From positions 10,551,258 to 10,615,257 of the forward strand of contig NC_069134.1 in the NCBI RefSeq assembly GCF_026914265.1: a stretch of 64,000 bases of DNA, read 5' to 3'. The position numbers and the translations under genes were made by a program. Position 1 is the stretch's first letter, and each line of letters starts with the position of its first letter. Positions 1 through 63,497 of the stretch are shown piece after piece. The DNA comes from Mya arenaria (Eukaryota > Mollusca > Bivalvia > Myida > Myidae). The notes under the pieces were generated by a model. That model was not told the DNA's origin. It worked only from the letters and a program-made list of their open reading frames with translations, and made no database searches.

Positions 1-372
1 TTGTACAAACTCAAATTGTTATTTAGACTCAATGTCAACCTTCAAAACGCATGGAAAAACAATGTCTTATAGTACATTTTTATTGATGGTAAAGACGCCA
101 ACATGAAAATATTCCATTTGGATCTCTATCTGTAGAATGACCACGTATTGTCAGTTTGAATGTTCATTCAATGGTTATTTTGTCTGTATTAAAAATGATC
201 TTGATGGGAATATACAGTTTTTTTGCTTACAGTTCTATATCTAGTTGGTGTTGATTTTTGCCTTTTTTAAATATGTAGAGCATGTATAAAAAAAAGAACA
301 GATTCAGTTCCAAGAAAATGTTTTGACCACTTATTTAACTATTTCTGAGAAAATTATTTCTGTGTTCTACAG
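1..372. other. Left-edge non-coding sequence
   Basis: AT-rich sequence with no long open frame and no recognisable RNA or repeat. If the exon pair just to the right is real, this is intron of a plus-strand gene that starts outside the window. Confidence 0.4.
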
Positions 373-639
373 GTTTAGAAAGGATGTATTGAAAAGCAGA
401 GGTAATGTGATAGGAATAATAGTCTGTGATTTTGTTTCACGATCAATGTTTACAATGCAGTCCCAAGTTACCTCAACTGAATCTGTGACAAAGAACAGCT
501 GCCAAACCCAATAACAGATGACAATTCATTGTCGCCACTGTTGTCACTGTCCCTGGAAACTGATGGGGACTCTGTTCTGCAGCAATCTGAAATTACCAGA
601 AAACATTATCAGCCTGGATCACATTTAATATATACATAA
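373..639 (+). CDS. Possible last two exons of an upstream gene
   Basis: Two segments fit together as spliced 3'-terminal coding exons. The first (373-401) follows a pyrimidine-rich acceptor ending in tctacag and ends at a gtaatg donor, encoding FRKDVLKSR. The second (518-639) follows acataacag-like sequence and encodes DDNSLSPLLSLSLETDGDSV and about 20 more residues before TAA at 637-639. Both junctions are phase 1, so the frame is kept across a 115-bp intron. The peptide is serine/leucine-rich and acidic; I do not recognise the family. The remainder of the gene would lie to the left of the window. The acceptor of the second exon has a weak pyrimidine tract, so the model is tentative. Confidence 0.33.
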
Positions 640-2848
640 GTCAATATTTGATGCTTTCAGAAAGTAATTTAATTTTAAATATCAAACAATATCTTGGAGC
701 TTCATGACTAATTCACTTAAGTCTTGATTTGAAGTTATGTGATGATAGCATGCATATCATACTAATCTTTTCTTTCTAACTTTGATTCCTTTCATCTTTC
801 ACTGTTTGGTTAATGCTATGCTCATTGGACCTGTATTTTTTTTAATTGCATTGGTATACATATCTGAACTTATCACATGACTTTCACATGCTAAATATAC
901 ACACTATAAACTGGGAAACCATTATGCGCTATTTTTAAATGGGTAAACTCAGCTGAGACAGCGACAAAATATTTTTGGTAATCATGTTAAATGATGTATG
1001 ATGTATAATCATACTAATTCGTATTAATAATTCTAGGCTTGCTTTGAGAAAAATACAGTATTTGCTGATTTTGGGAACATCTGGTGTCTAGTACCTTTAA
1101 CTGTTGAAGTTCTGAACAAAAATCCTAATCTGATTGTCTAGGATTTGCATAATTTGCTTGGCTTAATAATGACAACATTAAAATCTGGACTTTCATGAAA
1201 AGTGTCATCATTCCGTAGGTTTCAGCTTTTCCCTCACATATTGGTAGTTTTTTTATTGATAAAAAGTTGCCTTGGTTAAGAACTTTAATTGTCACACTAA
1301 TGCACTAAGCTTGATTTTGAAAACGTTGAGGTGCCAATGAAGTTTGTGGTGCCAATGAACAGTAATGGTGTTCATGCATTTTTTTCAGCTCTTTATTGGT
1401 ATTTTATTTTTTAATGGATTACCTGGCAAGTGCCGAGTCATGTCAAAGGTTAATGAAAAAACATGGACAAATGAGGCATTTGAATACATCTGAATAAAAT
1501 GACGTTCAGCTGGGAACGGCGACCTTACGTCAGCGGCTACGAAGCCACGCCCCCTGAAATCAATGGAGCGAACTCTGTTTATGCCCGTCAAACAACCAAA
1601 CAAGGAAGCAACATTTGGCGTCTCGAATTGTTTAACTGGTCTTCAGAGACGTAGGCACAATTCAAATATATAGGAGTTGAGAGTTGGTTAATGTAGTAAA
1701 CGGAAAACTGCTACCTATACATACCTACCGTTATCCACCTCTCCTTCCTTCCAATATTAATTCATTCATTCATTCAAAGGCATGACAATAACGCCTCCAC
1801 GTGGTGTGGCCTGGATGTAGATGGATTCGCTACAGCTAATGGTTATTATAACTTATAAAAGTAATACATCTTATAACTTAACACTCTGACAATAAAATAC
1901 CCCATACCCCAGTTTGCTTATTTCTGCCTAAACAGTAGGCATAATAATCAAAACTTGAATTGAAAATTACTTCAGTTTTAAATAACAAAATAACACATAT
2001 TTTTCATAACAAAGTTCCTCTAATCTTATTTTATTTTCGTATCTTCGTAAAAAAATATATTTTGGGGTTTTATATTGTGGTTGTCTTCTTTGGTTTCGTT
2101 TTCGTTGTTGTCTCCCTTTGACCACTAAGTAACTATTTTACATGGATATTGTATCTGTGTGTGATCAACACTATATGTGTACACGTGCGGTCAACACTGT
2201 TTAAATTAATTTCTGTGACAGATGACATTTTACTGAGTCAAAAAAACACTTAAGGTTTCTTGGATTCTGAAGCTAAGAGTTACCATTTGTCTAACCGTAT
2301 ATTCTGTTGCAAGGTCTTTCATACTTGCGTGTCACATGCAGTGTCAGTGAGAATATATGCAGTTCGATCCACAATCGATAGGTTGAATGTATGATGCAAA
2401 TGTGAAATTGTCATAAGTACACATGGATATCACTATCAACTATGAGCTAATATGGTATATATTAGTTATATTGATCATAGTTATAAATGTCAAACACTTT
2501 GTATTAATTATTTTAATTATTCTTATAATTATTCTCAGTTATTTGTGTACTTTCAGATTGGCGCGGCTGTACGTCAGAGGATATAGAGATTGTGTGAAGC
2601 GAGCATCGTGTTTATTCATCACTTAAAATTATTAGTAACATTAATTACAGAAACATGAACGTATTAATTAACCGACAGAACTAGTCCGGAAAACTTATGA
2701 CCGAAAATAACCAAATTTTCGCATTTTAATCATACCCGTGAATTGTCGTTTTTTGTTCAGTATAGTAATCATTAAGAAAGTAATATTACATAATATAATA
2801 ATACAGTCGCGAACAAAGTCATTAAATACGACTACAAATATATATGGC
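640..2848. other. Intergenic, with a CpG-containing promoter-like patch
   Basis: No supported gene. Most of it is AT-rich. At about 1500-1640 the composition changes: a CRE-like acgtca (near 1528), a GC-box-like gccacgcccc (near 1543) and several CpGs sit close together, which is what a small promoter or enhancer would look like. No transcript model could be attached to it. A 72-codon minus-strand open frame over this patch has no family resemblance and was not called. Confidence 0.35.
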
Positions 2849-2861
2849 GCGAAACTGAAAC
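2849..2861 (+). promoter_or_regulatory. ISRE-like site upstream of the RHIM-death gene
   Basis: The sequence gcgaaactgaaac contains GAAACTGAAAC, an exact fit to the interferon-stimulated response element core GAAANNGAAA that IRF-family factors bind. It lies about 270 bp before the chosen start codon, and a TATA-like run (tatatataatataaa, about 3010-3025) lies between. IRF genes are known in bivalves. Functional use here is inference, because a single 10-bp core can occur by chance. Confidence 0.45.
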
Positions 2862-2891
2862 ATGTGGAAACCACGGCGGTGACGTTTGATA

Positions 2892-2920
2892 CATTCGGAA
2901 CTCCTCGGCCATTCCGAATG
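2892..2920. repeat. Palindromic fragment matching a MITE terminal repeat
   Basis: Perfect 9-bp arms (cattcggaa / ttccgaatg) flank ctcctcggcca. The same string, tcggaactcctcg-ccatt, forms the terminal inverted repeat of the MITE at 31245-31602. This is therefore probably a remnant end, or a solo joined end, of that family sitting in the promoter region of the RHIM-death gene. Confidence 0.5.
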
Positions 2921-3128
2921 CGATTGATACTGTACTATTTGTTCGGATGCTATTAATAGCCAACTACGCCATTGGAAAAAAACCAACGTTTGGTTTTGCA
3001 GTGTAATTCGTATATATAATATAAACTGGATAAAGCTGGAGCTTTACAGATTGGCATAACATAAAATTGTATGTGACTTGTTTAATGTGCAACTAACTAA
3101 ACCACTAGCAAATAACAAAATTTGCAAA

Positions 3129-4793
3129 ATGAAAGTTGATTCGAGCAGCGAAAGCGAAAGTGAGTGGGAGGATTTTGAGGGACTCCATGGTTTCGGCCCG
3201 GGCACAACAGTAATCCAATCGGGTGGAGAAACAACAATCATACCAGGTAATATTAAAAATTAACATGTTACTGAGTGGTTTCCTCAAATAAAGTATATGC
3301 TGGCAATCTTACATCGTTGCCTATGGCTATGACATTTGTTGTACAAGCCATGGCAGTGAATATTCTGATCATAATTAATGTTTAGTCCCACCGTACATTT
3401 ACCTGGTATTTGGACTGCAGTTTTGGCCTGCCGAGATATGCCAACTGCCCGCAACTATCCGATTCGAGCGATTGCAGACCAGACAGTCCAAATACCAGGT
3501 ATACATAGCTCTGTGTTTGGTCAGGGGAACGGGGTGCTGAATCACAGCACAGGCTTTTTGCAATGCATGATCATGCATTTAAAAAACACTAATGTAACAG
3601 TTAATGGTGTTGTCTAAATTACATCCCTGGAATAGGCTTTGAAATTCTTGGGATCGTCGGAGTTCACTGTTTCAACGTTGGGAGGTAATTAGCGCCGGGT
3701 TGCAGCCTGTACCCCGGAATCACATAATATAGTAAAGTCCATATAGTCTCCACACTACTGATGGATTAGGTACCAAGGCCCTAGTACAGCCGCCGAATCC
3801 AATCAAGCATGTAACCATGGTTACATAAAATAAGCACGATTCCTAGCGTAACTTTTTTATTGTCAGCTTTTTAGAAATTGGTCCTGCCGCCAGTCTGAAA
3901 ACCTTGCCTAACAGATTTAATAGTGTGTTCACGCGCGTCTGTGAATATGGATTTGACTCTTTCACATATTATTTATCATCATCATGTAGCATTAATTACT
4001 TTCTACGTAGCCGGAACTTAAATTTAAATAAATTTCCCCGAGATCCGTCTCTTTGTATATCCGTTGAAAACCATTTTCTGAATGTGGCCTTCTTTAAAAA
4101 TTGGAAAATCCTGAATTGTTTAGGTTTCAGTAATAACAGAGAAATATTACTTTTTGCAGCAGGTTGTAGTGTTCAAATCTCCGGGATGACAGGCCTCACT
4201 ATCGGCGCCAATAACTACACGGTCGTGGAAAGAAACGGGACACATAGGGCACGTTCGCGCAATCACGGTCACAGAAAACACACTCGTTCAAGGTCACCAC
4301 CCGTCAGAACAGGTTTGTACTTCTAAAAATCCATGGTCTGTTCTCTGTGATACTTGTTAAAGATGAAAATGCAATTATGGTAACGGGATCAACATGTTTT
4401 CTAGTGACATACGGACTAAGGTGTATTTTTAAAATGGTAGTATGTGATGCTATTCACTATTATTTGCAAAAAAAATTTTTCAGCAATCACCGTTTTTTTT
4501 TTTTTAATGTTTTATCATCTACAGATTCAACAACGCCGGTATCAAATTCAAATATGAACCATATTTGTAACAACATCGGGGGCCGATGGCGCAGGCTAGG
4601 TGCCGCTCTTGGTGAGACGCGGGGCGCCTTGGAGGCTATCGAGTATGACTTTCGGACAGAGGGGACGTATGAAATGGCCTGGCAGATGCTCCTCAGATGG
4701 CGACGTCGGAACGGAAGTGGAGCGACCGTTGGCCGTCTCGTGAAATGCCTCTTGGAAATAGGCGAGTCGGAGTTAGCCAAAGAAATGCCTTGA
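3129..4793 (+). CDS. RHIM and death-domain adaptor (RIPK1/IMD-like, no kinase)
   Basis: Four exons: 3129-3246, 3421-3498, 4163-4312 (or from 4160) and 4525-4793. All have GT-AG boundaries and every intron is phase 1. They total 615 nt, giving 204 residues. Residues 76-88 (TGLTIGANNYTVV) fit a RHIM: compare RIPK1's TGIQIGAYNYMEI, with the I-G core, NY and flanking hydrophobics kept and core Q replaced by T. Residues 93-114 are a basic Arg/Ser/His linker. Residues 132-203 form a death domain whose WQMLLRWRRRNGSGATVGRL resembles the RIPK1 death domain. The N-terminus is Ser/Glu-rich (SSSESESEWEDFEG). RHIM followed by death domain without a kinase is the layout of arthropod IMD, so the inferred role is an amyloid-nucleating adaptor in NF-kB or cell-death signalling. 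The start at 3129 has A at -3; an in-frame ATG at 3078 is in poorer context. Exon boundaries need transcript support. Confidence 0.8.
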
Positions 4794-5161: not shown

Positions 5162-5252
5162 AATAAAAAGTTTGTATATGTTGAATGTGTAGTTATTCAA
5201 ACTCATTTGTTGCAAATTTAATGTAAAATACCATTATTTGTTTTCAATAAAA
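5162..5252 (+). terminator. Two polyadenylation signals for the RHIM-death gene
   Basis: AATAAA occurs at 5162 and again at 5247, 370-455 bp after the stop codon and before the satellite begins. Either would give a normal-length 3' UTR. Confidence 0.5.
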
Positions 5253-5448
5253 AAGTTAACCCGTGTGTTGTTGTTCAACTAGCATCATGTTCAGTTTTAA
5301 ATGCCACCAGCAAAACACTAAGGTAGATGTACCATGCCCTCTTTTGGCGCCAACCATGTGCTATCGCTTTCGTTTTCACGTGAAACCAAAGGAAACTATT
5401 TGAATCTGATATTATAGTATTATATTAAGCCCATTAGGTTTCTTTAAA

Positions 5449-7850
5449 ACTGCGCATATTATACGTTTTCCAAGATAGTTTTACATAGTCAACTGCGCAT
5501 ATTATACGTTTTCCAAGATATTTTTACACAGTCAACTGCGCATATTATACGTTTTCCAAGATATTTTTACACAGTCAACTGCGCATATTAAACGTTTTCC
5601 AAGATATTTTTACATAGTCAACTGCGCATATTATACGTTTTCCAAGATATTTTTACATAGTCAACTGCGCATATTATACGTTTTCCAAGATATTTTTACA
5701 TAGTCAACTGCGCATATTATACGTTTTCCAAGATATTTTTACATAGTCAACTGCGCATATTATACGTTTTCCAAGATATTTTTACATAGTCAACTGCGCA
5801 TATTATACGTTTTCCAAGATATTTTTACATAGTCAACTGCGCATATTATACGTTTTCCAAGATATTTTTACATAGTCAACTGCGCATATTATACGTTTTC
5901 CAAGATATTTTTACATAGTCAACTGCGCATATTATACGTTTTCCAAGATATTTTTACATAGTCAACTGCGCATATTATACGTTTTCCAAGATATTTTTAC
6001 ATAGTCAACTGCGCATATTATACGTTTTCCAAGATATTTTTACATAGTCAACTGCGCATATTATACGTTTTCCAAGATATTTTTACATAGTCAACTGCGC
6101 ATATTATACGTTTTCCAAGATATTTTTACATAGTCAACTGCGCATATTATACGTTTTCCAAGATATTTTTACATAGTCAACTGCGCATATTAAACGTTTT
6201 CCAAGATATTTTTACATAGTCAACTGCGCATATTATACGTTTTCCAAGATATTTTTACATAGTCAACTGCGCATATTATACGTTTTCCAAGATATTTTTA
6301 CATAGTCAACTGCGCATATTAAACGTTTTCCAAGATATTTTTACATAGTCAACTGCGCATATTAAACGTTTTCCAAGATATTTTTACATAGTCAACTGCG
6401 CATATTATACGTTTTCCAAGATATTTTTACATAGTCAACTGCGCATATTAAACGTTTTCCAAGATATTTTTACATAGTCAACTGCGCATATTAAACGTTT
6501 TCCAAGATATTTTTACATAGTCAACTGCGCATATTATACGTTTTCCAAGATATTTTTACATTGTCAACTGCGCATATTAAACGTTTTCCAAGATATTTTT
6601 ACATAGTCAACTGCGCATATTATACGTTTTCCAAGATATTTTTACATAGTCAACTGCGCATATTAAACGTATTCCAAGATATTTTTACATAGTCAACTGC
6701 GCATATTATACGTTTTCCAAGATATTTTTACATAGTCAACTGCGCATATTATACGTTTTCCAAGATATTTTTACATAGTCAACTGCGCATATTAAACGTT
6801 TTCCAAGATATTTTTACATAGTCAACTGCGCATATTATACGTTTTCCAAGATATTTTTACATAGTCAACTGCGCATATTATACGTTTTCCAAGATATTTT
6901 TACATAGTCAACTGCGCATATTAAACGTTTTCCAAGATATTTTTACATAGTCAACTGCGCATATTAAACGTTTTCCAAGATATTTTTACATAGTCAACTG
7001 CGCATATTATACGTTTTCCAAGATATTTTTACATAGTCAACTGCGCATATTAAACGTTTTCCAAGATATTTTTACATAGTCAACTGCGCATATTAAACGT
7101 TTTCCAAGATATTTTTACATAGTCAACTGCGCATATTATACGTTTTCCAAGATATTTTTACATAGTCAACTGCGCATATTATACGTTTTCCAAGATATTT
7201 TTACATAGTCAACTGCGCATATTAAACGTTTTCCAAGATATTTTTACATAGTCAACTGCGCATATTAAACGTTTTCCAAGATATTTTTACATAGTCAACT
7301 GCGCATATTATACGTTTTCCAAGATATTTTTACATTGTCAACTGCGCATATTAAACGTTTTCCAAGATATTTTTACATAGTCAACTGCGCATATTATACG
7401 TTTTCCAAGATATTTTTACATAGTCAACTGCGCATATTAAACGTTTTCCAAGATATTTTTACATAGTCAACTGCGCATATTATACGTTTTCCAAGATATT
7501 TTTACATAGTCAACTGCGCATATTATACGTTTTCCAAGATATTTTTACATAGTCAACTGCGCATATTATACGTTATCCAAGATATTTTTACATAGTCAAC
7601 TGCGCATATTATACGTTTTCCAAGATATTTTTACATAGTCAACTGCGCATATTAAACGTTTTCCAAGATATTTTTACAGAGTCAACTGCGCATATTAAAC
7701 GTTTGAAAGATATTTTTACAGAGTCAACTGCGCATATTAAACGTTTGAAAGATATTTTTACTGAGTAAACTGCGCTTATTATACATTTTTAAGATATTTT
7801 TACAGAGTAAACTGCGCATATCAAACGTTTGAAAGATATTTTTTACAGAG
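5449..7850. repeat. 43-bp satellite, about 56 copies
   Basis: Head-to-tail units of 43 bp built around ctgcgcatattatacg, ttttccaagatatttttaca and tagtcaa. Units are nearly identical except for a recurrent switch between ttatacg and ttaaacg. The last four or five units (from about 7680) are diverged and some are shortened, as expected at an array edge. A rare variant, acattgtc for acatagtc, appears at 6561 and 7335, exactly 774 bp or 18 units apart, which suggests duplication of an 18-unit block. The array starts about 200 bp after the RHIM-death gene. Confidence 0.97.
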
Positions 7851-8164
7851 TATAAGGTACAAAAATGAGAAAGTTAAGAATTGAAATTTGAAGTCATTTT
7901 CATGGCAATGTCAATCGTATTCAATATCGTTCTTATCCTTGGTCACACCTCAGTGATTTCATTGGCCAGATAATTTTAGAGTCCATTCAAACAGTATCAA
8001 GTGAATTTAAGGGTGGTCATTGAATACAGCCCCAGGCTTTTCTGGAAACCTGAATATGAAATTACATAGCCTTGTAATTCCATGTCAAGCCTGTACTTTA
8101 TATCTCAGCAGGGAAAAGCACATACATGTAGCGACTTTCAAACTGACACACAAGAACAAGTAAA
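7851..8164. other. Short unique stretch between satellite and geminin 3' region
   Basis: No gene, RNA or repeat recognised beyond the decayed last satellite units at its left edge. Confidence 0.4.
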
Positions 8165-13400: not shown

Positions 13401-16400
13401 ACACAAGAGGCTGGTCGAGTTACAGAACATTTGGAAATGCAGGCTTGAGGCAGCTGGAGCTACAGAACATGTGGATATGCACACGTGAGGCTGGTGGAGC
13501 TACAGAACATGTGGAAATGCACACTTGAGGCTGGTGGAGCTACAGAACATGTGGAAGTGCCCACTTGAGGCTGGTGGAGCTACAGAACATGTGGAAATGC
13601 AGGCATGAGGCTGGCGGAGCTACAGAACATGTGAAAATGCACACTTGAGGCTGGCGAACGCACACTTGAGGCTGGGTGAGCTACAGAACATATGGAAATG
13701 CAGGCATAAAGCTGGCGGAGCTACAGAACCTGTGGAAATGCAGGCATGAGGCTGGTGGAGCTACAGAACATGTGGAAATGCACACTTGATGCTGGCGGAG
13801 ATACAGAACATGTGGACATGCAGGCATGAGGCTGGTGGAGCTACAGAACATGTGGTAATACAAACTTGAGGCTGGTGGAGCAACAGAACATGTGGAAAAG
13901 CAGGCATGAGCATGGTGGAGCTACAGAACATGTGGAAATGCACACTTGAGGCTGGCAGAGCTACAGAAGATGTGGAAATGCAGGCAAGAGGTTGATGGAG
14001 CAACAGAACATGTGGAAATGCAGGCATGAGCATGGTGGAGCTACAGAACATGTGTAAATGCACACTTGAGGCTGGCGGAGCTACAGAACAGGTGGAAATG
14101 CAGGCAAGAGGTTGATGAAGCTACAGAACATGTGAAATGCAGGCTTGAGGCTGGTGGAGCTACATAACTACAGAACATGTGGAAATGCACATTTGAGGCA
14201 GATGGAGCTACAGAACATGTGGAAATGCACGCTTGAAGCTGGTGGAGCTACAGAACATGTGATAATGCACGCTTGAGGCTGGTGGAGCTACAGAACATGT
14301 GGAAATGCACGCTTGAGGCTGGTGGAGCTACAGAACACGTGGAATCGCAGACTCGACACTGGTTGAGCTACAGAACATGTGGAAATGCATGCTTCAGGCT
14401 GGTGGAGGTACAGAACATGTGGATATGCACACTTGAGGCTGGTGGAGCTACATAATATGTGGAAATGCACGCTTGAAGCTGGTGGAGCTACAGAACATGT
14501 GGAAATGCACGCTTGAAGCTGGTGGAGCTACAGAACATGTGATAATGCACGCTTGAAGCTGGTGGAGCTACAGAACATGTGATAATGCACGCTTGAAGCT
14601 GGTGGAGCTACAGAACATGTGGAAATGCACACACGTGGCTCATATGGAGCTACAAAACATGTGAAAATGCATGCTGCAGTGCACATGGAAACATACACTT
14701 GAGGCTAGGGGAGCTACAGAACATGTGGACATGCAACCTAGAGGCTGGTGGAGCTACAGAAAATGTGGAAATGCAGGCTTGAGGCTGGTGGAGCTACAGA
14801 ACATGTGGAAGTGCACACTTGAGGCTGGTGGAGTGTCAGAACATGTAGAAATGCAGGCTTGAGGCTGGTAGAGCTACATTACATGTGGTAATGCATGCTT
14901 CAGGCTGGTGGAGCTACAGAACATGTGGATATGCACACTTGAGGCTGGTGGAGCTACATAACATGTGGAAATGCACACTTGAGGCTGGTGGATTACATGT
15001 GGAAATGTACACTTGAGGCTGGTGGAGCTACAGAACATGTGGAAATGCAGGCATGAGGCTGGTGGAGCTACAGAACATGTGGAAGTGCAAACTTGAGGCT
15101 GGTGATGCTACAGAACATGTGGAAATGCAGGCATGAGGCTGGTGGAGATACAGAACATATTGAAATGCACACTTGTGGCTGGTGGAGCTAAAAAAACATG
15201 TGGAAAATCATAATTTGTAGTAACTCCATTTAGTGTTTCAGAAATTTTCCAAACTGTGTTTAATCCTTCGACTTGTTTGAGCCTGTTGTCATGATACAAA
15301 TTGATTTGTTATAACTATTTAAAATGAAAATGAACACATTATACAGATAATGATAGCAATGCTCATTCTCACTGTCATCCTATACTTATTCATTTATGGA
15401 CCCATATAGCACATATGAAATGCATTTATGGACCCATATAGCACATATGATATGCATTTATGGACCCATATAGCACATATGATATGCATTTATGGACCCA
15501 TATAGCACATATGATATGCATTTATGGACCCATATAGCACATATGATATGCATTTATGGACCCATATAGCACATATGATATGCATTTATGGACCCATAAA
15601 GCTCATATGGTATGCATATATGGACCCATATAGCACATATGATATGCATTTATGGACCCATATAGCTCATATGGTATGCATTTATGGACCCATAAAGCTC
15701 ATATGATATGCATTTATGGACCCATATAGCACATATGATATGCATTTATGGACCCATAAAGCTCATATGATATGCATTTATGGACCCATATAGCACATAT
15801 GATATGCATTTATGGACCCATATAGCACATATGATATGCATTTATGGACCCATATAGCACATATGATATGCATTTATGGACCCATAAAGCTCATATGATA
15901 TGCATTTATGGACCCATATAGCACATATGATATGCATTTATGGACCCATAAAGCTCATATGATATTCATTTATAAACCCATATAGCACATATGATATGCA
16001 TTTATGGACCCATAAAGCTCATATGATATGCATTTATAGACCCATATAGCACATATGATATGCATTTATGGACCCATATAGCACATATGATATGCATTTA
16101 TGGACCCATAAAGCTCATATGATATGCATTTATGGACCCATATAGCACATATGATATGCATTTATGGACCCATAAAGCACATATGATATGCATTTATGGA
16201 CCCATATAGCACATATGATATGCATTTATGGACCCATAAAGCACATATGATATGCATTTATGGACCCATATAGCACATATGATATGCATTTATGGACCCA
16301 TATAGCACATAGGGTATGCATTTATGGACCCATATAGCACATATGATATGCATTTATGGACCCATATAGCACATAGGATATGCATTTATGGACCCATATA

Positions 16401-19205
16401 GCACATGTGATATGCATTTATGGACCCATATAGCACATAGGATATGCATTTATGGACCCATATAGCACATATGATATGCATTTATGGACCCATAAAGCTC
16501 ATATGATATGCATTTATGGACCCATATAGCACATATGATATGCATTTATAGACCCATAAAGCTCATATGATATGCATTTATGGACCCATATAGCACATAT
16601 GATATGCATTTATGGACCCATAAAGCTCATATGATATGCATTTATGGACCCATATAGCACATATGATATGCATTTATGGACCCATATAGCACATATGATA
16701 TGCATTTATGGACCCATATAGCACATATGATATGCATTTATGGACCCATATAGCACATATGATATGCATTTATGGACCCATAAAGCACATATGATATGCA
16801 TTTATGGACCCATATAGCACATATGATATGCATTTATGGACCCATAAAGCACATATGATATGCATTTATGGACCCATATAGCACATATGATATGCATTTA
16901 TGGACCCATATAGCACATATGATATGCATTTATGGACCCATATAGCACATATGATATGCATTTATGGACCCATATAGCACATAGGATATGCATTTATGGA
17001 CCCATATAGCACATATGATATGCATTTATCGACCCATAAAGCTCATATGATATGCATTTATGGACCCATATAGCACATATGATATGCATTTATGGACCCA
17101 TATAGCACATATGATATGCATTTATGGACCCATATAGCACATATGATATGCATTAATAGACCCATAAAGCTCATCGGATATGCATTTATGGACCCATATA
17201 GCACATATGATATGCATTTATGGACCCATATAGCACATAGGATATGCATTTATGGACCCATATAGCACATATGATATGCATTTATGGACCCATATAGCAC
17301 ATAGGATATGCATTTATGGACCCATATAGCACATATGATATGCATTTATAGACCCATAAAGCTCATATGATATGCATTTATGGACCCATATAGCACATAT
17401 GATATGCATTTATAGACCCATAAAGCTCATATGATATGCATTTATGGACCCATATAGCACATATGATATGCATTTATAGACCCATAAAGCTCATATGATA
17501 TGCATTTATGGACCCATATAGCACATATGATATGCATTTATGGACCCATATAGCACATATGATATGCATTTATGGACCCATATAGCACATACGATATGCA
17601 TTAATAGACCCATAAAGCTCATATGATATGCTTTTATGGACCCATAAAGCTCATATGATATGCATTTACGGACCCATATAGCACATAATGATATGCATTT
17701 AAGTCCATATATAGCACATATTACATGCATTTATGGACCCATCTCCTGCAAGTTACCTTTTCATTTTCAGCAAGAGCTTCAGCTAGGGACTGTCTTCTCT
17801 CCTCTGCCAATTCTCTCCAGTAGCTCTCTGGTATGGGATCTGTAATATCATCTCGGTCAAAAGCTTTACATAGCTTATGTTTACTGATGTTCATAGAAAC
17901 CAACTATTGATATATATTGAATTTAATTGAATGTAAAAGAAGGCAATGTTTATACTGTAGTTATTTATCCTTCTTGTCAGGATCATTGAGTACGATTCAT
18001 GTGCTGGAATATCGCAACCTGGTATTAAAGAGCATGAAGTTGTAACTAAACATACCATTGCTGTCAATGATCAGTTTGTCAACTCAGACTGTGATTTTCA
18101 ACCCACTTCCCGAAACTTATTTTTATTTCAAAAAGGAGAATAACTAATGATTTCAGCCAGAGTTATTGGCCTTACTGTACATGTGCAATATAGGTAGTCA
18201 CTTCCAACATGTTTACCAAGTTTTACCAAAGCAATCACAATACCGGTACTCAGACTTTCCTTCTAAAAACAGGCAAGCTAAACTAGTCAACAATGCCAGT
18301 GGGAAGTTTTCTAAAATCTAAAATAAGGCTGACCTCTTACTAATTCAATTTTATATGTTGTAAGTGCTAAGAAAATGACTAAACAGAACAAACCTTTGAC
18401 CATGAGATCATACGCCTCCTGATCAAGATCACCAGCTCCCACCCCACTGTCGTTATGTAGATCTGGGGACCCAAATACTCTTGAGACACCAGATATGTCA
18501 GTCTGCACATACATCTCAGTGTGCTCCGGGGAAGCCTGCACACACATCTCATGCACTGACCGGCGCACTGGGCTGGATGCAGCCACTGGCTTATCTTTAA
18601 ATATCTGGATTGGCTTTTTGTACGCAATGATCTTGTTTTGTTTATGTTGTTTTGCAGGCTTCTAAAAAAATACATATTTACATTGAAATTTTGGATGAAC
18701 AAAAAAAAAATGCTTAGCATCAAATTTCTTTACAAGCCCTGCTAATTAAAACCTAGATTTTTAACAAGCCGGTGAGCATTTTATCAATGCAGGGCTTGCA
18801 TGCGTGTGCAAATTTAACTACTGTATTATAATAATTGATTTGAAATTATTCACACAAGACTGTTTAGTTGATAGCTTCTCTACATTACATCAGTCTGAGA
18901 GTAACATGGCACTTTCAAGAGATATATAGGTTGTGGTAGCATACAGTTGAATTGAAACCAAAGAGAGTTGGTTCTGTATTCATTTCCAATGACCATAATT
19001 ATCTGCTATTAACAAATAAATTAATTGATGTAGTGCACTTACAGTCAATCAAATCTACACTTGCTAATGAATCTTTAAATAGTGTTCTGATTTTTACTGG
19101 TATCAACATCATGCCAAATATAACCTCTGATCCTAAAAGTTTTCCATCTGCAGTAAGCTGAAGGGTCTTGAGAGTTTTCCTTTCATCACTCAGAGTTGCT
19201 GCCAT
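10499..19205 (-). CDS. GMNN: Geminin, DNA replication licensing inhibitor
   Basis: Geminin binds CDT1 in the nucleus and blocks MCM loading until it is destroyed by the APC/C. Minus-strand exons: 19205-about 19125 (MAATLSDERKTLKTLQLTAD..., destruction box R9-K-T-L12, aligning with vertebrate RRTLK), 18661-18394 (ends DLDQEAYDLMVK, like human VTQESFDLMIK), 17839-17757 (DPIPESYWRELAEERRQSLA, the CDT1-binding and early coiled-coil part), 10992-10903 (30 residues of coiled coil, LHQSMEELKDENQNLSLLAS...) and 10621-10499 (acidic tail ending PTAE, TAA at 10499-10501). The sum is about 214 residues; human geminin has 209. The exon 1 donor is uncertain: a stop-free in-phase choice is after GSE (19125) or after LIP (19098), whereas the perfect gtaagt at about 19043 is out of phase with exon 2. 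The ATG follows an acceptor (atccttttag), so a 5' non-coding exon lies upstream. Intron 3 (10993-17756) is packed with tandem repeats. Confidence 0.92.
10993..11070. repeat. Two seed units of the 40-bp minisatellite beside geminin exon 4
   Basis: Starting inside exon 4 at about 10984, the 40 bases beginning ctggtggagctatataacat line up end to end with the 40-bp unit of the array at 13228-15212 (about 32 of 40 identical by eye). A second, more diverged copy follows (ctcttggagctatagacatt). The register is kept, so this exon/intron boundary looks like the ancestor of the array. Confidence 0.7.
11071..11490. repeat. Decayed dispersed repeat with a triple 14-bp repeat
   Basis: Contains paired phrases of a type common in bivalve intergenic DNA: tgacctagtaacctaggttt then cagtttcaaactaata (about 11258-11310), repeated as taacctagtgacccagtttt then agtttcaaactaataac (about 11441-11492). 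Between them, ctagattgatcaa is repeated three times (about 11386-11422). No coding capacity. Confidence 0.5.
11491..12736. mobile_element. Non-autonomous TIR element with alternating internal repeats (HINE-like)
   Basis: Inverted ends gctcgactattc (11517-11528) and gaatagtcgagc (12724-12735) enclose about 1.2 kb. Inside are seven units of roughly 170 bp, each holding caatgcaatac, gctgagatatt, acatgcaaaaccttaacc and agaatttctaagtcgaataa. Two sub-types alternate regularly: one with gatgtatttgctgagatatt-gacttaaatgtgg, the other with catcaagtagttgctgagat then taacctatgtgtgctt. Short inverted ends plus tandem core repeats resemble Helentron-associated HINE or pearl-type elements of bivalves, but no transposase or Rep gene is present and the class is inferred. 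Confidence 0.6.
12737..13227. other. Geminin intron 3, unique stretch
   Basis: No gene or repeat recognised. Two short plus-strand open frames here lack splice context or family resemblance. Confidence 0.4.
13228..15212. repeat. 40-bp minisatellite, about 49 copies, in geminin intron 3
   Basis: Units read ctggtggagctacagaacat then gtggaaatgcacacttgagg, with moderate divergence and a few short deletions. On the minus (geminin) strand each unit contains atgttctgtag followed by ctccaccag, i.e. a near copy of the acceptor and first nine coding bases of geminin exon 4. The first units (13228-13310) keep the exon-type agctatataac, linking the array to the boundary at 10993. Open frames across the array are by-products of the repeat. 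Confidence 0.95.
15383..17742. repeat. 32-bp satellite, about 73 copies, in geminin intron 3
   Basis: Units read tttatggacccatatagcac then atatgatatgca. A common variant has cataaagctcatatg in place of catatagcacatatg, and the two often alternate, giving a partial 64-bp higher-order period. Units are very homogeneous, which implies recent expansion or homogenisation. The right end of the array lies about 14 bp from the 5' splice site after geminin exon 3 (donor at 17755-17756). Confidence 0.97.

Positions 19206-21259: not shown

Positions 21260-21324
<65 letters not shown>
21260..21324. repeat. (TA)n microsatellite
   Basis: About 32 uninterrupted TA dinucleotides. Confidence 0.98.
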
Positions 21325-24336: not shown

Positions 24337-25770
24337 TTATCTTAATGAGTTAAATTCTACTTTGTCGTATGCATCTGCTTCCCCGCCATTCTTGTTCAAT
24401 CTAGATATAGTATCATATCCTACGTCATTACATTGGGAACCATCGAATTGAACGTGAGAATACATGTTGACCTTTACATTTGGAGGATGTTCAGCCACGC
24501 GTCTGTTCTGATTACCGGCAATGTCGTATTCGTTAGTGATTGGTATGCTACTGCACTCATCATATTGTACTTGCCCTCGAGATTGGGCAAATGACATTAG
24601 GTCTATTGTGGCATAGGAACCGCCAATGTCAGCAAGGTGCAAGTCATCTTTAAGGTTTGACTCAACTCTATTGTGTATAAAAAAATTGTGAAATTCTTCT
24701 TTCTGCGTATCCACCTTGCTACTTAACGATTTAGTGCACATATATAAAATCACACAGACAAGACCTAGAAGAGATAAACATCCGCCTATCGTGACGAAAA
24801 TACTGACTACCAAATCGTTATAATCGTTTTGTTTTTTTAAGTCATTGAAACATAAGTATAACCTTAGCTCAGTACAGTCTTCTGGTTCCAGAATAAGCTC
24901 TTTCCCAACTCTTGTAATGACCAGACACGGAGAGTGATTTCCAACACGGTGTTCAACAACAGTAAAGCTTCTAAAAGTTCCCACCCAATACGCCTCTTCC
25001 TTGAGGTCAGCTATTAGACTTCGGTAAGGTACAATAGTTGTATTCATATCTTTACAGACCCGAACACTATCTCGCCTGCTATTTCGTGTCTTCATCAAGC
25101 AGTGACTACGGTTATTAACGGTATGATTGGTTCCACTACAATTATAACCTTTACGTATGGTACAAACTGTTCCATGTTTTTCTGAACATTTTATCGTCCC
25201 GTTCGTGGTATCGCATTGAAATGAAAAGTCATCAAATGCTTCTCCAGTGATTAAACGATATACTCCTAGAATCGAGCTGTTATCCGGGTCGCATTCTATG
25301 GGCTTTGCTACATCTTTGTCCGTTTGATTCAAACACGCACAATATGTGGAATTTACTCCTATATATAAATCTGTAGATGTTTTATCATATCCACATGCTT
25401 TCGAACAGTTATAAATGGAATAAGGGTTGATTTTCTGTGCGGCATGTTCATGCACACTACATTGCTGCCAATACACCGGCAGACTATACACTGCGTAACC
25501 GGCGACCCATGCTGATTCACCTTCGTTTAACGTCAGACCATTTATATCAGAGTAAGTTTTCCACAGTCCAATGTTTTCGGACTTGTAGTTGACGGTTTCT
25601 GGAATCGGGCTGAAGAAACTGCTTGGTGCTAGTCCGCCTCTGTTGTGACATCGATTGAATGATTCTTTGTGGTTCACCTGCTTATTCCCTGCAACAACTC
25701 CGTAAAATACAGGGCCAAGAAAAAACAAAGTACAGTGGTGCATCATAATTTGACTGATTATTAGAACCAT
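24337..25770 (-). CDS. Type I membrane receptor-like protein with tyrosine-rich tail, copy 1
   Basis: Single open exon of 477 residues from the ATG at 25770. That start gives a signal peptide (MVLIISQIMMHHCTLFFLGP); the frame stays open upstream but has no better ATG, and copy 2 starts at the same Met. The ectodomain (about 25-318) is cysteine-rich with many N-x-S/T sites. A WSC-like segment (NCSKACGYDKTSTDLYIGVN then STYCACLN, 121-148) and a C-type-lectin-like stretch (CLMKTRNSRRDSVRVCKDM... to YLCFN, 224-309) can be suggested, but key lectin residues are not evident. Transmembrane helix 320-345 (VVSIFVTIGGCLSLLGLVCV). The cytoplasmic tail has tyrosines 386, 403, 415, 437, 452 and 468, of which VGYDTI fits the ITIM consensus, and YDTI with YDKV twelve residues later is ITAM-like. 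It would suit a surface receptor that signals through SH2 proteins. The family is not recognised. Confidence 0.7.
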   Translation of the reverse strand: MVLIISQIMMHHCTLFFLGPVFYGVVAGNKQVNHKESFNRCHNRGGLAPSSFFSPIPETVNYKSENIGLWKTYSDINGLTLNEGESAWVAGYAVYSLPVYWQQCSVHEHAAQKINPYSIYNCSKACGYDKTSTDLYIGVNSTYCACLNQTDKDVAKPIECDPDNSSILGVYRLITGEAFDDFSFQCDTTNGTIKCSEKHGTVCTIRKGYNCSGTNHTVNNRSHCLMKTRNSRRDSVRVCKDMNTTIVPYRSLIADLKEEAYWVGTFRSFTVVEHRVGNHSPCLVITRVGKELILEPEDCTELRLYLCFNDLKKQNDYNDLVVSIFVTIGGCLSLLGLVCVILYMCTKSLSSKVDTQKEEFHNFFIHNRVESNLKDDLHLADIGGSYATIDLMSFAQSRGQVQYDECSSIPITNEYDIAGNQNRRVAEHPPNVKVNMYSHVQFDGSQCNDVGYDTISRLNKNGGEADAYDKVEFNSLR

Positions 25771-26160
25771 TCGGGCGAAAAAGTCAGGAACTAAGTGAAA
25801 ATGTATTATAAAATATATGTATACATATACAAGGATGAAAAAAAAGAAGTTTTCTTCCCTGTATGCACAATTTAGTAGTGTCGAACGATTGGAGCGGCTT
25901 TTAATTGCACAATTGTGATAATAAGTGTTTATTTCCGATGATTGTGAATAAAACATTTTCACTCTGACAATGTGTCAAAATATAACACAATTTTCAGTTA
26001 TTATAACATCACAATTATCATCGCGGTTATTGTAAAATTGAAGCTCATTTTGTGCAAGACAATCACTGTCTGGATATTTTTCTTGAAGACACAAAACATT
26101 GTAGTTTCAAACTCGTCAACACCATTGACAGAATTAGTTCGACTTGAGAGTACATGTTAG

Positions 26161-32172: not shown

Positions 32173-33465
32173 TTATCCAAATGAGGAAAAGTCTACTTTG
32201 TCGTATGCATCCGCTTCCTCGCCATTCCTGTTCGATCTAGATATGCTACTGCACTCATTACCTTGTACTTGACCTCGAGATTGGGCAAATGACATTGGAT
32301 CGAGTGTGGTGTAAGACCCGCCAATGTCAGCAAGCTGCACGTCATCTTCAATGTTTGACTCAACTCTATTGTGTATATGAAAGTCTTCTTTGTGCATATC
32401 CAAATGGTAACCTATCAATTCAGTGTACATATATAAAATCACACAAACAAGACCTAGAAGAGATAAACATCCGCCTATTGTGGCTAAAATACTGATTACA
32501 AAATCATTGTAATCGTTTGGACTTGTTTCCTTAATGTCATTGAAACATAAGTAAAGCCTTAGCTCAGTACAGTCTTCTGGTTCCAGAATAAGCTCTTTCC
32601 CAACTCTTGTAATGACCAGACACGGAGAGTGATTTCCAACACGGTCTTTAACAACAGTAAAGCTTCTAAAAGTTCCCAACCAATACGCCTCTTCATTGAG
32701 GTTAGATATCAGCCTTCGGTAAGGTACAATACGTGTATCCATATCTTTACAGACCCGCACACTATCTCGCCAGCTATTTCGTGTCTTCATCAAGCAGTAA
32801 CTACGGTTATTAACGGTATGATTGGTTCCATTACAATGATAACCTTAACCTCCGATACAAACTGTTCTATGTTTTTCTGAACATTTTCTCGTCCCGTTCG
32901 TGGTATCGCATTGAAATGAAAAGTCATCAAATGCTTCTCCAGTGATTAAACGAAATACTCCTAGAATCGAGCTGATATCCGGGTCGCATTCTATGAGCTT
33001 TGCTACATCTATGTCCGTTTGATTCAAACACGCACAGTATTTGGAATTTACTCCTATATATAAATTTGTAGATGTTTGATCATATCCACATGTTTTCAAA
33101 CAGTTATTATTGGAATAAGAGTTGATTTTCTGTGCGGCATGTTCATGCACACTACATTGCTGCCAATACACCAGCAGACTATACACTGCGTAACCGGCGA
33201 CCCATGCTGATTCCCCTTCGTTTAACGTCAGACCATTTATATCAGAGTGAGTTTTCCACAGTCCAATGTTTTCGGACTTGTAGTTGACGGTTTCTGGAAT
33301 TGGGCTGAAGAAACTGCTTGGTGCTAGTCCGCCTCTGCTGTGACATCGATTGAATGATTCTTTGTGGTCCACCTGCTTATTCCTTGCAACAACTCCGTAG
33401 AATACAGGGGCAAGAAAAAACAAAGTACAGTGGTGCCTCATAATTTGACTGATTATTAGAACCAT
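32173..33465 (-). pseudogene. Receptor-like protein copy 2, interrupted by a stop
   Basis: Paralogue of the gene at 24337-25770 with very high identity over the ectodomain and the same start (MVLIISQIM). The reading frame is interrupted once: the codon aligned with Lys207 of copy 1 is TAA (about 32845-32847), after which the same frame continues to the natural end. The region coding for the tail lacks 46 codons present in copy 1, removing tyrosines 415, 437 and 452; Tyr403 is replaced by Gly. Only the SYTTL and AYDKV tyrosines remain. As it stands it could yield a secreted 206-residue N-terminal fragment, or the stop may be polymorphic or an assembly error. Confidence 0.75.
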
Positions 33466-34880
33466 TCGGGCGAAAAAGTCAGGAACTAAGTGAAAATGTA
33501 TTATAAAATATATGTATACATATACAAGGATGAAAAAAGAAGTTTTCTTCCTTTTATGGATATTTTAGAAGTTTCGAACCATTGGGGCGGCTTTTTATTG
33601 CACAATTGTGAGAATAAGTGTTTAATTTCCGTGGTAGGTGACAATGTGTCGAAATACAACACAATTTACCATTGTTATAAAACAACAACTATCCATCGCG
33701 GTTATTATAAAATTTCAGCTCATTTTGTGGAAAAGAATCACTGTCAGACATTAACATTGTTGTATCCTATTCGTCCTCACCACTGACAGAATCAGTTCGA
33801 CCTGAGAGTACACGTCAGCATTTACACACAGATGATTCTCGTTTTGTCAAATATGCAAAAATGGCTTACAAATGTCTATCCGCCTATTTTAAAATAACTT
33901 TGGTGACAGATAGTGTCATAAAGAATACATTTAATTGAATGTATCAAAGCATGTTTGGCCTCAACACTTTCAAACTAAATAATATGTCAAAAACAAAATA
34001 TACATGCTATAAATTACTAAACAGGACCACAAATATACATGTAACATATGTGCTGTATACATTCGCGGGAATCATACAAATGATGGATATGTGTTAAAAG
34101 ATAAGTCAAAGCCACACTCTCGGCTTCGGGCAATATATCCGACCGTTTATACTGAAACAAATACTTGTTGCATCGGGCCTCTTGAGCACTTTTTTTATTA
34201 ACGTTCTGTCTGATATTGTTCAAAAGAATGTTTACTGAAACTGTCAAATAATCATATACATTTAAAACTTGATAACTTTCGCTGCGATGCTGACAAACTC
34301 CAATATTATCATGAATTGTTTTTCATAGTGTTACATAACATCTGCTACTTAACAATGCCTCAGCATTCTCGTAGACCAGAGATAAATATGCTATGATTAC
34401 AATTTTTATCATTATCAAGAGTCTGATCATTGGGGCCTCAGTGGTCCGTCGGTAAAGAATCTAGCTCATACATTAAACAATAAGCGCCAAATATTCACTC
34501 ATTGTGACGATAATAGATCAGGTGTGGGTTTATAATATAAACTTTATATTGTTGCTTTTGTTCGTCCTCAGAACTAAAGCTGCCACAAGTTAAGCGTGGT
34601 ACATGTATATGTATTTTAAATTCTTGTTTAATGTTATAGTTTTATCTGCATGGTGACCTAGATACACAAAAATAAACTATGGTTTCCATATTATATTTTT
34701 AGCATATGTTTATCAAAAGTTTGTTATGTATGCTCTTTTTATTACATTTATAGAAGATTTTGAATAAACAAGAATCTTTAGAATTTGAGAGAAAGTTCAT
34801 GAGGATTTTTATTATATACATGTATGTTCTGGAATATTTCCATGCCAATCTTCTCTAAGTGTAAAGTTAACAAGTCTTTA

Positions 34881-35953: not shown

Positions 35954-38004
35954 GTATGTGTATGAAATATTCAAATCTATTTTGTTTTTCCAATTTTTTT
36001 TTTCTTCAATACTAGACAAATTGGCAATTTTAGTTTTATTTTACTTTCTTTTAAGGTAAAAAAAGGTACAGTTTATGTGTTGGCTTGAGATTTGGGTTAT
36101 CATATGTCCATGAAGTTTTAGCCCAATTTTAGGATGGGTGGGGTGTCGCCTCCCTATATTGAGACTTTTTTATAATTGTAGTGAATGGTGCAATTTCCTG
36201 CGTTCTTGCTAAACTAAACTGCTACAGTATATAGTCCAACAATAAAATTGTTGTTCTTTATATCTTTTTGTATTCCTTAGTGGTCGAAATTAGCACAAGC
36301 CCGCAAACCCTGCACAGGTAAAATGTCCTCCGGGCTTGCTCGATTCTGAAATATAGCAGGGCTTGTTAAAAATTTGATGCCAAGCATAAGAATTCGGGCT
36401 TAATCATCTAAAAGTCTTATTGAAATTACTGGTTCCTCAAAGTTTTAAACCGAACAAATTCACGTGGTAGTGAGTAGTTATGTTTATATTAACACTGGAG
36501 ACAATACCCAGTGAAATGTGTTAAACAGGGCCTCCCTGGAGTCTGCTGTTCTTGTACATAAAGAGCATGAATCCTGTGATCATACTCAAATAATAATTAA
36601 ATGCAATCAAGTAATATATCCAACACTCATTATCCAACACTCATTCATTCAGATAAGAGATGATCAAGAAGGAAAAAAAACTTTATATAGGGACAATATC
36701 GCAAGCTTTACCTTCATGCTGGCTGACGTCACATGCATCTGCCTGTATGTATTTGTTTGAAGAACGATGAGATTCCTGAGCTCATAAGAGGCATGAGAAC
36801 TTTGTGTTAGGCCTTGTTGAAATTTTTAGTCAGAATGATTTGTTTTTCATGTAAACTTCCAATTGAAACTTCAAACTTAAATTGGCATTCAAAATGATTC
36901 TTGATTTTTGATACTCGATGGCAGGATGAGGAATCATGTGACTTCAACGGGGTTCTCACATGGGTCACCACAGTTCAAAACTAATGTAAACAAACATGAA
37001 ATGATGTTAATTTCTAAATAACTTTTTTGAAAGAAAAGATCTGAAAATATTTCTTAGTCCATAAATGACTATTTTATATTCCGCTTCTTCACCCGTGAAC
37101 TATTTTTAGATTTGCTTGTATTTTAAAGATGCAATCCTTGGCCAAAATTTCAACTTGACGGAATTTTGTAGAACAATGCAAAGCTGTGGGCGGCATGAAT
37201 CTTTCATGTTAAATTACAATTGGAGTATCCCATCAATTAACATATCATTGATTTATTCGAATTCAAAAGCCAATAGTGTTATTAGTTGGAAAGATGAAGG
37301 TCCATTGTATTTCAACCCTAACGCCAATTTGGAGTTGGGGAGAGCCATGAACGCGATTGAATGATGGTCAAGTGAAATATTCTTTACGGGCCTTCCGGCT
37401 ATCAGCCAACCATTATGATAGCAGCTGACACACCTTGCTTTAGGTCACCTATAATGAAGGCCTAAACTGTGTATGTCAATATTGTTTTTATAAGGCATGT
37501 CGTCCTGGGGATTAAGGCATGTAGGTGCAATAAACATGTGTCGGTTATCAGCCTTGCCCCGGGAATGCACATCGGGCTAGACAAGTCATAAAGGCATGGT
37601 GGAAACCCTGTGGTTTACTGTTTTTAAATAAATGACCATCATTTTTTTCTGGTTCTTGGTCCTATTCACCTTTAAGAAACAAAATAAAGAAAAATAATAA
37701 CATTAACTTATCCATTGGTATAACTCCCAGGCAAATTAGGCCATGTTTGATTCCTTTTCCTTGGAGCAGTATATGTCAATGCCTGTTTATGCAAGTTTAT
37801 TTTTAGAAACTTAAATCCAAATTATTGTGTAGCAGTTCAATGAAAATGATTCGTTTTGTGATTAAAAAACTATTTTAGTTTACAAAGTGAAAGTTAATGT
37901 ATTAATTACTTCATTTTATAATCATTTAGGATGTAAAACATGATTACCATATTTTTTTTTTCAGATTGACAGAAGAGTAGAATTTGTTCCCTCAACATCA
38001 AAAT
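35954..38004. other. Intergenic and 5' region of the KLHL gene
   Basis: No gene called. At about 36290-36410 a short dispersed repeat (agggcttgttaaaaatttga, cgggcttgctcgattctgaa) also appears in part at 18735-18800 within geminin intron 1. At about 37390-37620 a GC-richer stretch with repeated aaggcatg strings looks like an old repeat. The sequence cagattgacagaagag (about 37964) is the acceptor of the KLHL coding exon, so a 5' non-coding exon must lie upstream, perhaps here. Confidence 0.4.
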
Positions 38005-61600: not shown

Positions 61601-63497
61601 GTTGTAGGTTTGAGTCCCACCAGGGTAAGAGTGATCTAGCGGTATGCAAGTGGTTGTGGGTTTGAGTCCCACCAGGGTAAGAGTGGTCTAGAGGTATGCA
61701 AGAGGTTGTGGGTTTGAGTCCCACCAGGGTGAGAGTGGTCTAGCGGTATGCAAGTGGTTGTGGGTTTGAGTCTCACCAGGGTAAGAGTGATCTAGCGGTA
61801 TGCAAGAGGTTGTGGGTTTGAGTCCCACCAGGGTAAGAGTGATCTAGCGGTATGCAAGTGGTTGTAGGTTTGAGTCCCACGGGGGTGATAGTGGTCTAGA
61901 TGTATGCAAGAGGTTGTGGGTTTGAGTCACACCAGGGTGAGAGTGGTCTAGATGTATGCAAGAGGTTGTAGGTTTGAGTCCCACCAGGGTAAGAGTGATC
62001 TAGTGGTATGCAAGAGGTTGTAGGTTTGAGTCCCACGGGGGTGATAGTGGTCTAGATGTATGCAAGAGGTTGTGGGTTTGAGTCCCACCAGGGTAAGAGT
62101 GATCTAGCAGTATGCAAGAGGTTGTAGGTTTGAGTCCCACCAGGGTGAGAGTGGTCTAGCGGTATGCAAGAGGTTGTGGGTTTGAGTCCCACCAGGGTGA
62201 GAGTGGTCTAGCGGTATGCAAGAGGTTGTAGGTTTGAGTCCCACCAGGGTGAGAGTGATCTAGCGGTATGCAAGTGGTTGTAGGTTTGAGTCCCACGGGG
62301 GTGATAGTGGTCTAGATGTATGCAAGAGGTTGTGGGTTTGAGTCACACCAGGGTGAGAGTGGTCTAGTGGAATGCAAGAGGTTGTGGGTTTGAGTCCCAC
62401 CAGGGTAAGAGTGATCTAGTGGTATGCAAGTGGTTGTAGGTTTGAGTCCCACGCGGGTGATAGTGGTCTAGATGTATGCAAGAGGTTGTGGGTTTGAGTC
62501 CCACCAGGGTAAGAGTGATCTAGCGGTATGCAAGTGGTTGTAGGTTTGAGTCCCACCAGGGTAAGAGTGATCTAGCGGTATGCAAGTGGTTGTGGGTTTG
62601 AGTCCCACCAGGGTAAGAGTGGTCTAGAGGTATGCAAGAGGTTGTGGGTTTGAGTCCCACCAGGGTGAGAGTGGTCTAGCGGTATGCAAGTGGTTGTGGG
62701 TTTGAGTCTCACCAGGGTAAGAGTGATCTAGCGGTATGCAAGAGGTTGTGGGTTTGAGTCCCACCAGGGTAAGAGTGATCTAGCGGTATGCAAGTGGTTG
62801 TAGGTTTGAGTCCCACGGGGGTGATAGTGGTCTAGATGTATGCAAGAGGTTGTGGTTTTGAGTCCTGCAAGAGTGAGAGTGGTCTAGCGGTATGCAAGTG
62901 GTTGTGGTTTTGAGTCACACCAGGGTGAGAGTGGTCTAGTGGAATGCAAGAAGTTGTGGGTTTGAGTCCAAGAGGGTAAGAGTGATCTAGTGGTATGCAA
63001 GTGGTTGTGGGTTTGAGTCCCACGGGGGTGATAGTGGTCTAGCGGTATACAAGTGGTTGTGGGTTTGAGTCCTGCAAGAGTAAGAGTGGTTTAGAGGTAT
63101 GCAAGAGGTTGTGGGTTTGAGTCCTGCAAGAGTGAGAGTGGTCTAGAGGTATGCAAGAGGTTGTGGGTTTGAGTCACATCAGGGTCATAGTGGTCTAGCG
63201 GTATGCAAGAGGTTGTGGGTTTGAGTCACACCAGAATGAGAGTGGTCTAGCAGTATGCAAGAGGTTGTGGGTTTGAGTCACACCAGGGTCATAGTGGTCT
63301 AGCGGTATGCAAGAGGTTGTGGGTTTGAGTCACACCAGAGTGAGAGTGGTCTAGCGGTATGCAAGAGGTTGTGGGTTTGAGTTCCACCAGTGTGAGAGTG
63401 GTCTAGCGGTATGCAAGAGGTTGTGGGTTCGAGTCCTGCGAGAGTGAGAGTGGTTTGGCAGTACGCAAGTGGTTGTGGGTTTGAGTCACACCAGGGA
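58635..63497 (+). repeat. 52-bp array of tRNA-like units, about 92 copies
   Basis: The unit reads gtgagagtggtctagcggta, tgcaagaggttgtgggtttg, agtcccaccagg. It contains tggtctagcgg, an exact fit to the pol III A box TRGYNNANNNG, and ggtttgagtcc, one mismatch from the B box GGTTCRANTCC. The segment gtggg-tttgagt-cccac is a perfect T-arm (5-bp stem, 7-nt loop). The boxes are only 16 bp apart because the anticodon arm is missing. The first two or three units (58635-58775) are longer and still carry anticodon-arm-like sequence (tgtgtctctcaatagaggtt), which points to a tRNA-headed SINE as ancestor. The array lies in intron 2 of the ADAP-like gene. Open frames on the minus strand are repeat artefacts. 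Confidence 0.93.

Follow-up and report, generated by a model that had tools for sequence, protein, structure and literature searches.

A candidate kinase-less adaptor of RIPK1/IMD type with a glutamine-less RHIM-like motif in the bivalve Mya arenaria

In insects, the immune adaptor IMD joins a RHIM to a death domain and has no kinase, and it further carries a cleavage and IAP-binding pattern recognized as a D-A dipeptide together with A-x-[PA]-[IVFY]. The situation of the IMD route outside arthropods is an open question. A 2023 paper describes, in its available passages, the Imd adaptor as not found in molluscs and brachiopods, which agrees with the view of molluscs taken in a preliminary description of the present locus; it presents the imd of a nemertean as the first one known from spiralians and reports that this gene gave no response to Vibrio (PMC9835746). 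In flies, according to excerpts of PMC9496462, the RHIMs of PGRP-LC and PGRP-LE miss the conserved glutamine, and these so-called cryptic RHIMs still form amyloid; IMD also has a cryptic RHIM, and through its death domain it binds FADD, by which the caspase-8 DREDD is brought in.

The other closely related system is RIPK1, defined in the available text of PMC12119088 by a kinase, a RHIM tetrad and a death domain. RIPK1-like proteins with a conserved RHIM, in which the tetrad glutamine is kept, are described there in zebra mussel, Lingula and lancelets, and in human cells the C-terminus of zebra mussel RIPK1, devoid of its kinase, turns on NF-kB, for which the RHIM is required. By taxonomy, zebra mussel and Mya share the order Myida. 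Regarding bivalves in general, the available parts of three papers report FADD and no TRADD in Mytilus edulis (PMC3308963), RIPK1, FADD and caspase 8 among the annotated genes of oyster (PMC8917759), and a bivalve iridovirus encoding a predicted CARD and RHIM protein similar to bivalve sequences (PMC12452177), the last of which may hint at other RHIM proteins in bivalves. No kinase-less RHIM and death-domain protein of a mollusc was found in the titles and abstracts among the matches listed in the open-licence literature, and a term search of PMC7531772 and PMC8905726 met no mention of RIPK1, IMD or RHIM.

Here we analyze a gene of Mya arenaria in a window of 64 kb, which is the whole stretch of DNA analyzed. 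The preliminary description had presented it as a RHIM spliced to a RIPK1-type death domain with no kinase, the layout of IMD in arthropods, and had proposed it as a candidate for the adaptor missing from molluscs. With a protein of 179 residues showing the IMD layout, the question of the IMD route becomes testable by one small construct; the case also serves to separate two look-alike histories, namely kinase loss from RIPK1 and descent from IMD, and to show that a profile library can overlook glutamine-less RHIMs.

The gene and its deposited record

The gene lies on the plus strand, and its four proposed exons (3129-3246, 3421-3498, 4163-4312 and 4525-4793) splice cleanly, with GT/AG ends and three phase-1 introns, into 615 coding bases that stay open up to the stop, that is, the 204 codons claimed before plus a stop codon. 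The GC content is 0.49-0.54 in the exons versus 0.30-0.39 in the introns. The coding part of exon 1 holds the start codon, an acidic N-terminus and a first beta-prone stretch, exon 3 the RHIM-like motif and a basic His/Arg/Ser linker, and exon 4 the death domain and the stop codon.

A protein database search with the 204-residue query found a public record named "RIPK1-like protein [Mya arenaria]", with 179 residues and designated P0001 below. In exons 1, 3 and 4 it is identical to our frame; exon 2 is missing from it, and one additional Ala is explained by an exon 3 beginning at 4160 (acceptor AG 4158-4159), three bases before 4163, at a CAGCAG tandem acceptor of the NAGNAG kind (4157-4162). 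P0001 carries exons 1, 3 and 4 and hence lends them outside support, so that this part of the earlier exon model stands, whereas exon 2 is skipped in the record and the acceptor of exon 3 is moved; for exon 2 no outside support was found, P0001 being the single matching record. The record is inferred to come from the annotation described in PMC10663159, the available text of which reports a chromosome-scale Mya genome annotated by MAKER using RNA-seq of six tissues. Judged by its splicing and by this record, the gene is real; it is already public under the name RIPK1-like, and it is the layout that had gone unremarked. Further copies of the gene were not detected in the 64-kb window by tblastn, which gave only weak matches with E values of 1.6 or worse.

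Around the coding part, the string TATAAA at 3020-3025, about 100 bases before the start codon in AT-rich DNA, is a possible core promoter element, and AATAAA at 5162-5167, with another at 5246, is a possible polyadenylation signal; these are string matches only, and AATAAA is also present twice within the introns. Between TATAAA and the start codon lie two tiny upstream ORFs, 3071-3076 (ATG-stop) and 3085-3096 (three codons), which could dampen translation if transcription starts near 3045.

The remainder of the window contains several other elements. Just downstream of the gene is a 43-bp tandem repeat at 5448-7851, with 56 copies that are 97% alike, and further arrays have units of 32 bp (15387-17742) and 52 bp (58747-63496). 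On the minus strand, a receptor-like gene is duplicated in tandem at 24343-25974 and 32179-33564, the two copies being about 90% identical over 1,535 bases; one is a single ORF of 544 residues and the other is broken by a stop. They have an apparent transmembrane stretch, several tyrosine motifs in the tail and no Pfam match. Near this duplicated receptor, a second RHIM-like string, LTLGNLNY, occurs at 31448 on the minus strand in an ORF of 90 residues, and the count of such strings is about that of chance. The window further holds a BTB-BACK-Kelch protein in one ORF of 592 codons (37981-39756, plus strand) and an exon of an ArsA/GET3-type ATPase (46400-46714, minus strand; Pfam E 2.4e-17). 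Rfam gave no match in the window.

Exon 2 and its inverted repeat

Exon 2 (3421-3498) has 26 codons, good splice sites, a matching phase and a GC content of 0.53, and its presence or absence is neutral to the frame. It sits within an 18-nt perfect inverted repeat, the left arm of which (3400-3417) stops two bases short of the exon's acceptor AG, while the right arm (3484-3501) includes the donor GT (3499-3500). Folded alone, bases 3380-3520 reach -45.4 kcal/mol versus a shuffle mean of -30.8 (z -4.32), and 0 of 200 shuffles are as low; the same hairpin persists in a context of 361 bases, with a smaller excess (z -2.05, 3 of 100 shuffles as low). Besides a (TA)n run at 21260-21324, this pair is the sole perfect inverted repeat of at least 18 bases within 150 bases in the window, and the element was not found elsewhere in the window with up to three mismatches.

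Because of its position within the repeat, exon 2 is read as an optional cassette exon that would usually be hidden. In this putative arrangement the hairpin would conceal the splice sites of exon 2, giving a usual transcript without it, and inclusion would set two beta-prone stretches, directly ahead of the RHIM-like motif, apart by 26 residues, which could tune assembly.

Death domain, RHIM-like motif and kinase

The death domain is the most clearly recognized part of the protein. The Pfam profile PF00531 (Death) matches the 204-residue form with 39.8 bits (E 5.2e-10) at residues 126-202 and P0001 with 40.1 bits (E 4.1e-10) at residues 101-177 (4554-4784, plus strand), against a gathering cut-off of 22.6, so the score asked of this profile is well above background. 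Among the 27 distinct PDB chains listed by phmmer to E 10, the best is RIPK1 with 48.8 bits, and TRADD (37.6), THOC1 (25) and FADD (22.2) come after it; for human RIPK1 as the query, the best non-RIPK1 chain is FADD with 37.5 bits, a rough comparison since the query differs. Aligned with the death domain of human RIPK1, the Mya domain is identical at 28 of 85 positions. On sequence resemblance it is RIPK1-type, human RIPK1 being the closest of the solved structures compared. The position aligned with K599 of human RIPK1 is Arg, and a Lys-to-Arg change there is reported to block RIPK1 dimerisation; a term search of PMC11850271 and PMC12517274 returned neither K599 nor K584.

The RHIM-like motif, TGLTIGANNYTVV, lies at the codons given for it before (4189-4227, plus strand), and the core glutamine is replaced by threonine as had been noted, so that the tetrad reads LTIG in place of V/I-Q-V/I-G; the canonical RIPK1 tetrad is thus missing while the wider motif matches. 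It is identical to the human RIPK1 RHIM, TGIQIGAYNYMEI, at 7 of 13 positions with a BLOSUM62 score of 37, and RIPK3 scores lower, 35, against human RIPK1 over the same 13 positions. In 100,000 shuffles of residues 1-100 of P0001, matches as good were obtained once for the RHIM of human RIPK1, 12 times for RIPK3 and 74 times for mouse RIPK1, the reference strings having been verified against PDB chains. By this measure the match exceeds chance. A bare regular-expression match would be weak evidence for a RHIM, with 2 matches in the six frames of the window versus 0.8 on average when it is block-shuffled 30 times.

A match to the RHIM profile PF12721 had been expected, and this expectation failed: the 204-residue form, P0001 and two RHIM-containing pieces all give none at E 10. 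Two controls show that little follows from this. A piece of human RIPK1 scores 22.5 bits (cut-off 20) and is undetected once its glutamine is changed to threonine, and for a RIPK3 piece the same change lowers the score from 35.8 to 24.4 bits; since human RIPK1 behaves alike, the silence of PF12721 on the Mya motif is what the Gln-to-Thr replacement alone would give.

That only the death domain is real, and that the RHIM resemblance arose fortuitously in a beta-prone, Gly/Asn-rich stretch, is a reading to be weighed against these controls. The silent profile would suit it, as would the PDB search with the 33-residue RHIM piece, which matched two pilins only (E 6.4 and 6.8), and the database searches, which gave no relative across species. 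Of these searches, the 204-residue query (318 candidates) and the death-domain region of P0001 (23 candidates) returned P0001 only, and a three-fold head-to-tail P0001 query, made for longer proteins and scored over residues 40-179, returned 0 of 563 at E 10; the method needs shared 5-residue words, and these failures prove little and are not read as absence of relatives. Viral relatives were sought as well, and none of 7 pattern matches encodes one. On the other side stand the single shuffle in 100,000 that equals the match to human RIPK1, the equal invisibility of glutamine-to-threonine RIPK1 to PF12721, and the order of the motif relative to a RIPK1-type death domain, and we consider a fortuitous resemblance very improbable. 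As a hint only, an aggregation scale gives raised values over scattered stretches of P0001 residues 22-62, and also over parts of the death domain.

As for the kinase, Pfam detects none in the 204- or the 179-residue form and none among the 18 plus-strand ORFs of at least 40 residues overlapping 1-3260, for which the best matches are to unrelated families (E 0.07-0.44). The scan reaches over the 3,128 bases upstream of the start codon for frames of at least 40 residues, and within it the earlier view of the protein as kinase-less holds; the N-terminal kinase of the RIPK1 definition (PMC12119088, available text) is missing from both protein forms and from these upstream frames. Taken together, splicing, Pfam, the shuffles and the 28/85 identity support the view that a bivalve has a protein without a kinase in which a RHIM-like motif precedes a death domain of RIPK1 type.

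From the ATG back to 3060 the coding frame is free of stops, and there is sequence left of base 1, so an upstream exon joined to exon 1 can be imagined, which we judge unlikely. This bears on the proposal that the locus is the tail of an ordinary RIPK1, with its kinase exons beyond the left edge of the window and a truncated deposited model. A kinase-bearing RIPK1 in the same order Myida, the open frame and the limit of 3,128 visible bases would favor such a tail. It is made improbable by a deposited model that starts at the same ATG, by the TATAAA at 3020, by the lack of a Pfam kinase in the 18 upstream frames, and by a tetrad without the glutamine, which zebra mussel, Lingula and lancelets conserve in their RIPK1-like proteins (PMC12119088, available text).

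Proposed function and comparison with RIPK1 and IMD

We consider it probable that the locus is a working Mya arenaria gene for a small kinase-less adaptor of RIPK1/IMD type, in which a basic linker connects a cryptic RHIM to a RIPK1-type death domain. From the observed gene structure, death domain, RHIM-like motif and absence of a kinase in the scanned frames, the later steps that we would infer are as follows: an upstream RHIM-bearing partner would nucleate the Mya RHIM into amyloid, the clustered death domains would recruit FADD and caspase-8, or ubiquitin ligases, and the outcome would be NF-kB activation or cell death with no need for kinase activity. Such a mechanism resembles that of IMD in flies and that of the kinase-less C-terminus of zebra mussel RIPK1 in human cells; by analogy the Mya protein corresponds to a naturally occurring form of the latter, with an IMD-like, glutamine-less tetrad. 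Points against this reading are the silence of PF12721, the Arg at the K599-equivalent position, the loss of NF-kB activation in two RIPK3 tetrad variants described below, and the nemertean imd that did not respond to Vibrio.

The same features would also fit a brake, that is, a decoy capping the RHIM or death-domain assemblies of a full clam RIPK1 as a natural dominant negative. The missing kinase, the altered tetrad and the Arg at the K599-equivalent position agree with this, and so does the loss of NF-kB activation caused by some single tetrad changes in human RIPK3: in the available text of PMC12119088, the natural variants TQIG and VQSG lost it, although all tested RIPK3 tetrad variants kept ZBP1-dependent killing, and no Gln-to-Thr tetrad (LTIG) is among those listed. 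Against a brake, fly cryptic RHIMs without the glutamine still signal (PMC9496462, excerpts), and the kinase-less C-terminus of zebra mussel RIPK1 activates rather than inhibits (PMC12119088, excerpts); a decoy is accordingly quite unlikely in our estimate, and the signaling adaptor is preferred.

The interpretation as a candidate IMD-type adaptor survives only in part. In its favor, the window holds a protein without kinase and with a C-terminal death domain, which is the IMD layout, and the glutamine-less RHIM is present as a sequence motif; in the fly IMD pathway the missing glutamine is what marks a RHIM as cryptic, as defined in the available text of PMC9496462, and this helps an IMD-like reading. 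On the other hand, the measured resemblance of the death domain is to RIPK1, and neither the 179- nor the 204-residue form contains a D-A dipeptide or A-x-[PA]-[IVFY], hence there is no IMD-type cleavage plus IAP-binding site, that is, no site for DREDD/caspase-8 exposing an IAP-binding motif; a different molluscan cleavage site is possible. The Mya protein is also half the length of fly IMD.

These points weigh on the proposal that the gene is orthologous to arthropod IMD, and so an IMD inherited by molluscs, and not a copy of RIPK1 that lost its kinase. The kinase-less layout and the missing glutamine would be natural for it, and the full RIPK1 of zebra mussel (PMC12119088, available text) leaves room for a second, separate gene; the same kinase-bearing RIPK1 within the order Myida makes kinase loss from RIPK1 a competitor of IMD descent. 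With RIPK1 as the closest measured relative among the solved structures compared, with the cleavage and IAP-binding motifs not found and with the shorter length, descent from IMD is unlikely, but we keep it in view. At the same time, the missing kinase and canonical tetrad put the protein outside RIPK1 by the definition of PMC12119088. The best reading is thus a kinase-less variant of the RIPK1/IMD kind, whichever its descent, and as such it is a candidate for the adaptor that had not turned up in molluscs according to the available text of PMC9835746.

A bolder picture, for which our expectation is similarly low, would make this protein the first IMD-type adaptor of a mollusc beside a full RIPK1; a cassette exon, locked within an RNA hairpin of 18 bp, would act as the switch of its amyloid core. 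If true, bivalves would have, next to RIPK1, an amyloid route to FADD/caspase-8/NF-kB that works without a kinase, and the CARD-RHIM gene of the bivalve iridovirus (PMC12452177, excerpts) could represent a viral counterpart of RHIM signaling of this sort.

Compared with the known systems, the Mya protein shares with the RIPK1 of spiralians and lancelets (zebra mussel XP_052232845.1, by its description) the order of a RHIM followed by a C-terminal death domain, and its death domain is RIPK1-type by comparison with human RIPK1; unlike them, it is without a kinase, has LTIG for V/I-Q-V/I-G, is only 179 or 204 residues long and contains a basic linker. Like Drosophila IMD, it combines the lack of a kinase with a cryptic RHIM devoid of glutamine and a C-terminal death domain, whereas no caspase-cleavage plus IAP-binding motif was detected in it. 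With the imd of Lineus ruber, as described in the available text of PMC9835746, it has in common that it is a spiralian death-domain adaptor candidate, and it differs in its RHIM-like motif, since the RHIM survey of the Lineus ruber transcriptome reported there found none.
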